Shown piece by piece: positions 31,910-35,045 of a stretch of DNA of 35,204 nucleotides (its first letter is position 1; each line of letters starts with the position of its first letter). Source of the stretch: Acidobacteriota bacterium (GTDB taxonomy: Bacteria > Acidobacteriota > Aminicenantia > UBA2199); NCBI GenBank assembly GCA_025456175.1, contig JALOLC010000011.1, positions 1 through 35,204 of the forward strand, in the 5' to 3' direction. Below the pieces are notes generated by a model. That model was not told the origin of the DNA. It searched no databases and was given only the letters and a program-made list of their open reading frames with translations. A program made the position numbers and the translations under genes.

Positions 31910-31979
31910 TCGTTATAGACCCATTCGCAATGTCGGATAAGATAGATTATGTAAACCAATGCCTTATTCGAGATAAAAA

Positions 31980-32813
31980 CTAGTTAAAATCCTTGAATTT
32001 TTTCTCGCGAATCTCCCGGATCAGCTTCTCAAGGGCTGCGATCAGGCTCTCCCCGTCCACATTCTTTTCCTTGAAGCGCAGGTTGATCTTGACTTTCTTA
32101 TCATCGGTAACAAAATTGAAATTAAAGTTTTTTGCCTTGGAGGCGGAGCCTTTTCTCTGCTGCTTGATCTTCTCGCGGGAGAAGGGCTTTTTCCCGTACT
32201 GGGCCAGGAGGACATCCATTTTTTCCAGATCTCCCAACTTGGTCAGTTCGAGCAGAAACGTCTTTGATTCTATGCCCAGCTGGAGACACTTTTCCTTAAT
32301 TTCCTGCGGCAGATCGGTAATGCGAATCAACTCGCTGACCGTCACGCGCGACTTAGCGATCTTTTTCGCGATTTCATCGTGGGTATAGCCATAGATCTCG
32401 GTCAGAGAGCGGATCGAATGCGCCTGCTCAAGAATATTGAGGTCTTTGCGCTGGATGTTTTCAATGATTGACATCTCCAAGGCCTCGTTTTCAGGCACGT
32501 CGTGCTCAATGCATGGAATTTCATGCATTCCGGCTTCCCGGGCGGCCCTGAAACGCCTTTCGCCGGCGATAATCTCGAAATTCCCATCTCTCGGCCTGAC
32601 GATCACCGGTTCGATGATGCCATTTTCCCTAATGGAATCGGCAAGTTCAGCAAGATCTCCCATGTCGCGTCGCGGCTGCATTGCATTGGGGACCAGCTTG
32701 TCAATGGGGATATTGCGTATCACCGGTGTCTTTGTCCTCAGCGAGATTTCATCGACCAGATGGTGGTCATGCTTCATCTTGATGAACTCGGGCAAGCCAA
32801 CTTTTTTAGGCAT
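31980..32813 (-). CDS. parB: ParB/Spo0J family partition protein
   Basis: IPIDKLVPNAMQPRRDMGDLAELADSIRENGIIEPVIVRP, IAGERRFRAAREAG, IIENIQRKDLNILEQA, HTH YTHDEIAKKIAKSRVTVSELIRI; ATG at 32813 overlaps the parA stop; ORF-track extension to 32999 is an out-of-frame overlap with parA. Confidence 0.92.
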   Translation of the reverse strand: MPKKVGLPEFIKMKHDHHLVDEISLRTKTPVIRNIPIDKLVPNAMQPRRDMGDLAELADSIRENGIIEPVIVRPRDGNFEIIAGERRFRAAREAGMHEIPCIEHDVPENEALEMSIIENIQRKDLNILEQAHSIRSLTEIYGYTHDEIAKKIAKSRVTVSELIRITDLPQEIKEKCLQLGIESKTFLLELTKLGDLEKMDVLLAQYGKKPFSREKIKQQRKGSASKAKNFNFNFVTDDKKVKINLRFKEKNVDGESLIAALEKLIREIREKKFKDFN

Positions 32814-33561
32814 TTTTGATGATTTCCTTGGCCAGCTCCTGGTACTCGATCGCCCCCCTGGAATTGGGAGCAAAGGTGAAGATCGACTCCTTGTAAGCCG
32901 GACTTTCTTCAAGACGAACGTTTTTTGAGATAATGGTTTTAAAGACTCGCTCGGCGAACATTTTGCGAATATGTTCTTCGCTGTCCTTGGCGATGACAAT
33001 GCGCTTGTCGTAAAGGGTGATCAGAACGCCAAGCAGCATCAGGTCGGGATTGCTGCGCGCCCTGACCTTTTCGTAGGTGTCCAGAAGATCGTCGGTCCCT
33101 TCCAGGGCGAAATAGGAGGCCTGAATTGGGATGATCAGGTGGGTTGCCGCTACGAACGAATTGATGGTGATAAGACCCAGCGTGGGCGGCGTGTCGATGA
33201 TGATGTAGTCGTATTTGTACTTGAATGTGTCCAGTTTGTCTTTCAGGCGGAAATGGCCATCGATCTCCCCTACCAGCTTCGATTCCAGCTTGGCGAGGGC
33301 AATGGATGCCGGCAGCAAGGACAGGTTGATGATGGAAGTCGGTTGCACGACCTCATCAAAACTCAGTTCAGGATTCTCGAGCAAGTCGAAAAGGGAATGC
33401 TTTTGCTCACTGCGGTCCATGAAGGTCACGGTGGAGTTGGCTTGGGGGTCCATGTCAATCAGCAGTGTTTTATGGCCCATCAGGGCAAAAGCTGCCGCAA
33501 GATTGATTGAAGTAGTAGTTTTTCCTACGCCCCCTTTCTGGTTGGCGATGGTAATGATCAC
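32806..33561 (-). CDS. parA: ParA/Soj family ATPase
   Basis: IITIANQKGGVGKTTTSINLAAAFA deviant Walker A, LLIDMDPQANST, YIIIDTPPTLGLIT; GTG start at 33561 with GGAGAC RBS 5-10 nt upstream. Confidence 0.94.
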   Translation of the reverse strand: MIITIANQKGGVGKTTTSINLAAAFALMGHKTLLIDMDPQANSTVTFMDRSEQKHSLFDLLENPELSFDEVVQPTSIINLSLLPASIALAKLESKLVGEIDGHFRLKDKLDTFKYKYDYIIIDTPPTLGLITINSFVAATHLIIPIQASYFALEGTDDLLDTYEKVRARSNPDLMLLGVLITLYDKRIVIAKDSEEHIRKMFAERVFKTIISKNVRLEESPAYKESIFTFAPNSRGAIEYQELAKEIIKNA

Positions 33562-33587
33562 GTTGTCTCCTTGATTATGTGGACCCA

Positions 33588-33616
33588 ACTATAATCGATG
33601 AAACCATCATTGTCAA
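33588..33616 (-). promoter_or_regulatory. Sigma70-like promoter TTGACA-N17-TATAGT for parAB
   Basis: On the - strand: TTGACA (33616-33611), 17-bp spacer, TATAGT (33593-33588), then GGAGAC and the GTG start at 33561. Confidence 0.8.
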
Positions 33617-33640
33617 GAGCTTTTCAAGCGGGAAAATGGA

Positions 33641-33662
33641 CGATGTCGACATGTCGACATCG
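33641..33662. promoter_or_regulatory. Perfect 22-bp palindrome CGATGTCGACATGTCGACATCG (two abutting TGTCGACA boxes) upstream of parA; candidate operator or parS-like site
   Basis: Sequence equals its own reverse complement; TGTCGACA at 33644-33651 and 33652-33659; flanking inverted TTTCAAGC (33622-33629) / GCTTGAAA (33663-33670). Confidence 0.75.
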
Positions 33663-33734
33663 GCTTGAAATGGACTGCACGCGGAAAGAAGCCGAGAATA
33701 ACAGAGAATCAGATTATCGAGCGATATGGGGCGG

Positions 33735-35045
33735 TTAGCGGGATGCGGCGATCTTGAAATAGATGGGAATACCGGCGAAATCCAGTTCCTGTGTCAATCT
33801 TTTTTTCAGAAAAATCTCGTCGGTTGGATTTAACTTCAGGTTCGTCTTGCAGTGGAACTTCACGAAGAACGGGCGCTGTGTTTCGATCGAAATGAACTTG
33901 GGATTGAAGACCTTGTGATCGGAAGTGATCAGCTTTTTTTCACGAAGGATCCTTTTGACCAATTCATTGAACTGCGACAACTGGATTTTTTTCCCCAGTT
34001 TGGCCACGATGGTTTCCGCCAGGTCCAGAACCTGAAAAACGTTCTTGCCGCTGACGGCAGAAACAGCAATGAAGGGGGCGAAATATAGGGAATTGAAGCG
34101 GCTCCTGGCCTGGGCGAAGAATTTTTCACCGGCGGTTCCCGACGCAAGCAGGTCGGCCTTGTTTCCGGCTATTATAACCGGTTTGGCGGCTTGGACGACC
34201 TTCTGGGCGATCAGCAGGTCGTTCTGGTCCACCCGCTGGGAAATATCGATAACGAAGATGATGACATCGGATTGACGAAGCTCGCTCTCGGCGCGGATCA
34301 CGGCTGCGCTCTCGGTATCCTCCCTGACTTTCTGCATTTTGCGGATGCCGGCATTGTCCACCAGGATGAACGTCTGGCGGTTGCGCCTGACCTGCAAGTC
34401 CACCGAATCACGCGTGGTCCCCGGCATGGGGCTGACAATGACCATGTCGTCATTGAGAATCTTGTTGATCAGGGACGATTTCCCTACGTTCGGCTTGCCG
34501 ATGATGCTGATGCGGGCGACCGGATGGTCTTCAGGAATGGCCTGGGAGGAGAATGCAAAGGATTTTCCGATTTCATCCAGGAGTGTCTCAAGGCCCAGGT
34601 TGTGTTCGGCCGAAATCGGGATGAAATCGGCTTTAAGCTCATAATATGAAGAGGGCGGCAGAAAAGTATCCGGCTTGTCGGCCTTGTTGATCACCGGGAT
34701 GATCGTTTTGCGCAGCCTGCGGATCTGGAGGAAAAGGTCTTTTTCGTATCCCAGCAGCTCCCTCTTGCCATCGAACAAAAAAATGATCAGGTCGGATTCC
34801 TCCGCGGCCTTGAAGATCTTCTTGTTGATCTCGGCGCTGATGAACTCCTTGTCCGGGAAAAAGCCGCCGCTGTCCTGGAGATCGATCCGCCTGCCGTTGA
34901 CATCGATCTTCTGCCGGAAAATATCGCGGGTCATGCCGGGTTGATTGTGGATCAGGGCCTTTCTCCTGCCAATGAGGCGGTTGAAGAGGGTTGATTTCCC
35001 GGTATTGGGCACGCCGATGATTGTGATCAGAGGGAACTGGCTCAT
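33735..35045 (-). CDS. der: Ribosome biogenesis GTPase Der (EngA), tandem G domains
   Basis: GVPNTGKSTLFNRLIG, QPGMTRDIF, second G domain GKPNVGKSSLINKILND, PGTTRDSVDL, NKAD, C-terminal KH-like region. Confidence 0.95.
   Translation of the reverse strand: MSQFPLITIIGVPNTGKSTLFNRLIGRRKALIHNQPGMTRDIFRQKIDVNGRRIDLQDSGGFFPDKEFISAEINKKIFKAAEESDLIIFLFDGKRELLGYEKDLFLQIRRLRKTIIPVINKADKPDTFLPPSSYYELKADFIPISAEHNLGLETLLDEIGKSFAFSSQAIPEDHPVARISIIGKPNVGKSSLINKILNDDMVIVSPMPGTTRDSVDLQVRRNRQTFILVDNAGIRKMQKVREDTESAAVIRAESELRQSDVIIFVIDISQRVDQNDLLIAQKVVQAAKPVIIAGNKADLLASGTAGEKFFAQARSRFNSLYFAPFIAVSAVSGKNVFQVLDLAETIVAKLGKKIQLSQFNELVKRILREKKLITSDHKVFNPKFISIETQRPFFVKFHCKTNLKLNPTDEIFLKKRLTQELDFAGIPIYFKIAASR

Follow-up and report, generated by a model that had tools for sequence, protein, structure and literature searches.

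A conserved 16-bp palindrome linked to parA1-parB1 and a dif-type site as a candidate centromere of a second, terminus-linked ParABS system in Acidobacteriota

The window, a stretch of 35,204 nucleotides from an Acidobacteriota contig, contains parB1 (31980-32813), parA1 (32806-33561) and der (33735-35045), all on the minus strand. ParA1 is a 251-aa ParA/Soj-type ATPase with the Walker A motif KGGVGKTT and without an N-terminal HTH (AAA_31, E 1.8e-55). Its gene overlaps parB1, and thus a deviant Walker ParA-type ATPase adjoins a ParB, as in ParABS systems. ParB1 (277 aa) has both the CTPase domain and the HTH of that family (ParB_N, E 4.3e-29; HTH_ParB, E 5.1e-13). In profile searches and alignments it keeps the GERR and ENxQR motifs, while its N-terminal motif is GLP...HHLV and its DNA-contact residues are altered. 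About 22 bp past the parB1 stop codon, a sequence scan found a dif-type XerC/XerD site on the plus strand (31930-31957, ATGTCGGATAA-GATAGA-TTATGTAAACC), and this is the only match in the genome. It has the layout of an XerCD site, and we assign it as a putative dif by its sequence. The genes examined to the left of dif (window 1-31697: metF, metH, SLT transglycosylase, mltG, MacB/FtsX permeases, and others) are on the plus strand and parB1-parA1-der (31980-35045) is on the minus strand, so that both gene sets are transcribed towards dif. The EngA GTPase gene der, identified by profile search, adjoins parAB1 in the genus and family of the window only; other families do not have it there, and it lies outside the system.

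Between parA1 and der there is a perfect 22-bp palindrome, CGATGTCGACATGTCGACATCG (33641-33662), within which two TGTCGACA octamers abut at 33644-33651 and 33652-33659. A sequence-only reading of the window had described both, and our scan found them in place; the octamers are the sole copies in the window, where 0.35 is expected. A pattern scan located a sigma70-like, promoter-like element of parA1 on the minus strand (33588-33616; TTGACA at 33616-33611, a 17-nt spacer, and TATAGT ending at 33588), and a similar TTGACA is present in relatives from the genus. The palindrome is 24 bp from TTGACA, close to the 25 bp estimated earlier. An outer inverted repeat that had also been pointed out (TTTCAAGC at 33622-33629 and GCTTGAAA at 33663-33670, spanning 33622-33670) is present, but when its conservation was sought in the alignment of relatives it was absent even within the genus, and it is probably incidental. 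What is kept in the genus and family is an 18-bp block, ATGTCG...CGACAT (33643-33660), while the flanks are not; the outer CG/CG pairs of the 22-bp palindrome are local. Conservation upstream of parA in relatives, a check that the sequence-only reading had proposed, was found: the family block is ATGTCGRC..GYCGACAT, with the flanking positions free. The octamer TGTCGACA was rejected as the unit, as most relatives carry TGTCGGCATGCCGACA; its repetition is a coincidence, because R=A is combined with an AT centre. As judged from the alignments, the conserved core is a single 16-bp palindrome, TGTCGRCNNGYCGACA, and both the TGTCGACA boxes and the outer repeat (TTTCAAGC/GCTTGAAA) are local. In the window the core reads TGTCGACATGTCGACA (33644-33659; family consensus TGTCGRCNNGYCGACA), and after scans of the window, genome, class and phylum we propose it as a terminus parS and candidate ParB1 site. 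One relative (G033, L018 584-607) has three TGTCGACA octamers in tandem, which make two overlapping 16-mers.

The source genome is a 73.5%-complete MAG of 188 contigs and 2.19 Mb, in which the 16-mer TGTCGACATGTCGACA occurs once, even when two mismatches are allowed. The named relatives that match ParB1 indicate that it is a member of Candidatus Aminicenantes (Acidobacteriota). No canonical parS was found at up to three mismatches in the window, as the sequence-only reading had said of this neighbourhood, or at up to two mismatches in the genome. Its absence from the genome proves little, because the MAG is 73.5% complete and is also without ParB2. Most likely, the missing ParB2 match and canonical parS reflect an origin region that lies outside the bin.

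Exact TGTCGRCNNGYCGACA was found in 98 of 142 Aminicenantia genomes, usually in a single copy, and 63 of the 149 Acidobacteriota genomes sampled have it too; a parA1-parB1 pair nearly always adjoins it. The reversed control pattern was found in 5 and 3 genomes, respectively. Outside the class, 53 genomes have both the motif and ParB1, 16 have ParB1 only, one has the site only and 64 have neither; the Fisher p of 1.4e-21 overstates independence since the genomes are related, though the pattern covers dozens of families. Hence the motif occurs in only 1 of the 65 genomes without ParB1, and 16 ParB1-positive genomes are without the exact motif. Among 58 sites across the phylum, 29 are inside parB1, nine are just 3' of it, three are by parA1, 15 share the contig but are elsewhere on it (most of them within 50 kb), and two are on another contig. 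In Aminicenantia the site is typically 830-1050 bp 5' of parB1, which places it immediately upstream of parA1. A single site is the rule in most genomes; this is a low number for a centromere and counts against a centromere reading. In G229, the 53 kb around parB1 contain four sites, and there are several sites, tens of kb apart, in G199 and G188. A palindromic site near parAB that is clustered in some genomes is what is expected of a ParABS system.

The 29 sites inside parB1 are all at one codon position, 513-525 nt from the match start. There the site encodes C-R-x-A-D, with TGT, CGG and GAC in 32 of 32 such genes and GCC in 31 of 32, although in three sampled genomes TGT accounts for only 12-19% of Cys codons and CGG for 24-34% of its codon family. 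The parB1 genes without an internal site have CRxAG at this position with mixed codons. Judged by codon usage, the fixed codons are a signature of selection on DNA, not protein. In G145, G160, G172, G196, G255 and others (L161, L166, L167, L169, L292), the site fixes TGT CGG CNN GCC GAC. The Asp also seems to be fixed by the site, and the parB1 genes whose site is elsewhere mostly have Gly. A candidate DNA-binding site thus appears to override codon choice, and apparently one amino acid too, within parB1.

Nearly every relative has two chromosomal ParBs. ParB2 keeps N178 and GHAR and has a canonical or near-canonical parS about 0.9 kb away in Aminicenantia; in the genomes checked it is about 2-30 kb from dnaA. 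The origin is thus served by an ordinary ParB2 and canonical parS. Relatives do have canonical parS near oriC, yet the palindrome is widely conserved, which is not the combination that the sequence-only reading had named as telling against its proposal. A 55-sequence phylogeny puts ParB1 and ParB1-like proteins at one end of a long branch with full support, and ParB2 and the ParB and Noc proteins of Bacillota and Pseudomonadota at the other; by this tree, ParB1 is a separate ParB clade. An AlphaFold2 model of ParB1 has a pLDDT of 68, a modest to low confidence, and only confirms the ParB/Noc fold. Two of the acidobacteria, G199 and G188, encode many further ParB homologues (16 and 11 matches, respectively), which points to numerous plasmids there.

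In 27 aligned ParB1 rows, G84-R87, E118, N119 and R122 (GERR and ENxxR) are invariant. Mapped onto Caulobacter positions by HMMER alignments, all 27 rows have R156 (=R173), E161 (=N178), K/R184 (=G201) and L/I187 (=R204). At the ParB1 N-terminus (residues 4-22 in the protein of the window), a conserved GLPxxxxMRHDxHFVE replaces the usual ParB motif, and it is probably a clade-specific contact with ParA1. Canonical chromosomal ParB conserves R173 and G201; R173 of Caulobacter ParB reads G1 of parS, and Arg at position 201 of Noc reads C6 of NBS (PMC7383237). The motif shares G1 with parS and C6 with NBS. Because G1 and C6 match the kept R173 and the K/R at 201, ParB1 is the likely binder, and from these residues and the motif we infer that ParB1 likely binds it.

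The dif-type site is 28 bp long (XerC half, 6-bp centre and XerD half) and is a single match in the genome of the window and in nearly all matched closed genomes; in the control DNA, 1.40 Mb of samples taken from closed chromosomes, no such site was present. At 108 ParB1 loci (some genomes counted twice), one dif-type site is 3' of parB1, mostly at less than 1 kb, and at two loci at 2.5-6 kb. A 2011 survey predicted dif in three Acidobacteria, and ParB was not mentioned in it. The XerD half of dif faces parB1 in 25 of 26 loci measured, and this constant orientation implies that parAB1 stays on a single replichore side. Two families, f2 and f5, carry parAB1 or an orphan ParB1-like gene elsewhere but still have the palindrome 0.13-2.5 kb from dif (an exact copy in f2, a copy with one mismatch in several f5 genomes), and therefore the motif follows dif, not the genes. 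Three f5 loci (L117, L113, L112) have an orphan ParB1-like gene that is some 62 kb from dnaA and lacks a parA1, and a one-mismatch palindrome 134-144 bp from dif. Possibly, f5 has lost the motor and retained the terminus site. Family f41 (Chloracidobacterium-like) has its dif candidates some 40 kb away from parB1, and copies of the motif lie in between or close by. In f54 a ParB1-like gene adjoins dif (at 9-191 bp in L358, L359 and L360, where the GLP...MRHD N-terminus was undetected) and no motif was found nearby. In one f54 genome, G223, exact TGTCGGCCAGCCGACA is 354 kb away. The site may have changed in this branch.

Across seven closed genomes, the distance of ParB1 or the site from the dnaA antipode is 0.012-0.092 of the genome (0.41-0.57 when taken from dnaA). 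The probability of this placement by chance is 7e-6 if the seven genomes are independent, or 0.001 when four families are counted. Genome-wide GC skew was taken from samples along the chromosomes. In G196 and G229, ParB1 or the site is located where the sampled skew switches sign, while in G255, G431 and G063 it was uninformative. Within a few kb of dif, the GC skew switches sign in the genus of the window but has no consistent pattern elsewhere, and it is not taken as proof. Clustering of the palindrome near the origin had been put forward as a check; there is one copy in the genome of the window, and in the seven closed genomes ParB1 or the site is near the dnaA antipode. The sequence-only reading had not noted the dif site 22 bp beyond parB, the location at the terminus, or that the unit is a single 16-mer.

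parA1-parB1, the 16-bp palindrome and dif are thus a conserved group across Acidobacteriota, located at or near the dnaA antipode in closed genomes. We consider it very likely, on comparative sequence evidence, that the palindrome is a parS-like centromere of a second, terminus-linked ParABS formed by ParA1 and ParB1. The earlier proposal of a ParB lineage with its own centromere is strongly supported by the co-occurrence with ParB1, the clusters, the in-gene and downstream sites and the retention at dif. In such a system, a ParB1 dimer would nucleate on the palindrome through its HTH and, as in other ParABS systems, close as a CTP-dependent clamp and spread across the neighbouring dif region. 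Nucleoid-bound ParA1 might then engage ParB1, by which sister termini would be positioned, held or separated, and this could aid XerCD/FtsK dimer resolution and late segregation. Where the site is beside the parA1 promoter, as in the window, ParB1 would probably autoregulate too.

An operator-only function, in which ParB1 or ParA1 on the palindrome represses the parA1 promoter and the site is no centromere, would fit the 24 bp to the -35 box in the window and the Aminicenantia sites just upstream of parA1. It is quite unlikely, since 29 of the 58 phylum sites are inside parB1 and nine downstream, the f2 and f5 sites adjoin dif apart from parAB1, and G229, G199 and G188 have several sites spread over tens of kb. 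The autoregulatory operator of the sequence-only reading may hold where the site is upstream of parA1 but fails as a general explanation. That the palindrome is an intrinsic terminator of der, or a chance palindrome, is extremely improbable. A minus-strand scan does score it as terminator-like with the tail TCCATTTTCC, contrary to the earlier statement that no T-run follows it; however, the T-tract is not shared by relatives, the sequence rather than pairing alone is conserved, and other families keep the palindrome without an adjacent der. The earlier conclusion that it is not a terminator thus stands, and we rejected the terminator, as neighbours vary while the palindrome persists. Chance does not agree with a motif carried by 98 of 142 genomes. 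Because the motif sits upstream of parA1, inside parB1, 3' of parB1 or in distant clusters, a der terminator and a plain operator are excluded as its common function.

Elements that integrate at dif are known and can carry parAB, and ParB1 is on a long branch apart from chromosomal ParB2 and other ParBs. Xer-dependent integration at dif is a subject of PMC9765430. The locus might then be a relic or domesticated mobile element, with parAB1 arriving by integration at dif and parS left as baggage. This is quite unlikely: there is one dif per locus and no further att-like copy, the neighbours are housekeeping genes that vary by family, and ParB1 and the motif are phylum-wide with codon-level conservation, which argues for ongoing selection for function. 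parAB1 may have come long ago from a Xer-integrated element, which would be its origin rather than an alternative function. A plasmid origin of parAB1 was rejected, since only distant plasmid ParBs were matched. The palindrome could also be the terminus site of another protein (a MatP/matS-like organiser, a fork trap or an XerCD accessory site), and the motif does track dif even with parAB1 elsewhere. We regard this as very unlikely, because the motif is in only 1 of 65 genomes without ParB1, is symmetric and 16 bp long with parS-like TGT...ACA ends, and is matched by changes in the parS-contact residues of ParB1. Fork-trap sites are polar, unlike the symmetric motif, and the motif is also unlike matS.

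Going further, we think it somewhat probable that Acidobacteriota partition both chromosome ends with separate ParABS systems: one is canonical and at oriC, and the other, as old as the phylum and with a centromere of its own, actively positions the terminus around dif and couples it to dimer resolution. Chromosomal ParABS is understood as an origin-segregation machine, and MatP, FtsK and SMC-type proteins are so far the factors credited, in a few lineages, with handling the terminus. To our knowledge, all well-studied bacterial chromosome centromeres are near the replication origin. No precedent for a terminus- or dif-linked ParABS was found in the open-access literature searched; provisionally, a terminus ParABS is unreported, and the genomes scanned are those of Acidobacteriota. 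If the proposal is true, a ParA/ParB motor also manages the terminus. The system would allow a ready test of how the terminus is handled in bacteria other than Proteobacteria. It would also be a natural experiment on how ParB-parS specificity changes (N178E, G201K/R and R204L, matched by the motif), and would place two orthogonal ParB-parS pairs within one cell.

MatP/matS is similar by analogy only, as a dedicated protein-DNA system that marks the enterobacterial terminus around dif. The ParB1 family is unrelated to MatP, the conserved linked protein here being a ParB with Pfam ParB_N and HTH_ParB domains; moreover, matS is a 13-bp site with many copies over Ter, and MatP is without a ParA-type motor. 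Plasmid (type Ib) and second-chromosome ParABS systems also have a parS upstream of parAB, likely autoregulation and their own centromere sequence, but ParAB1 is on the main chromosome beside dif and is conserved across a phylum. The best plasmid ParB matches have less than 60% identity and cover at most 71% of ParB1. Similar to ParB1, Noc is a ParB paralogue with altered DNA specificity in genomes that keep a canonical ParB, and it too has C6 in its site (NBS, TATTTCCCGGGAAATA) and a basic residue at position 201. In contrast, ParB1 has its own ParA, keeps R173 and G1, and has few sites, all at the terminus; its motif differs from NBS, and it scores 155 bits against the NCBIfam Noc model, whose cut-off is 315. 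The system departs from canonical chromosomal ParABS (Spo0J, Caulobacter ParB) in that its motif is TGTCGRCNNGYCGACA instead of parS TGTTTCACGTGAAACA, it adjoins dif at the terminus and not oriC, and ParB1 does not keep both R173 and G201 but has Glu, Lys/Arg and Leu at N178, G201 and R204, with a canonical ParB2 also present. It shares with canonical ParABS a ParA-type ATPase beside a ParB with ParB_N, HTH, GERR and ENxxR, and a 16-bp palindrome with TGT...ACA ends whose sites are in parB or clustered over tens of kb.
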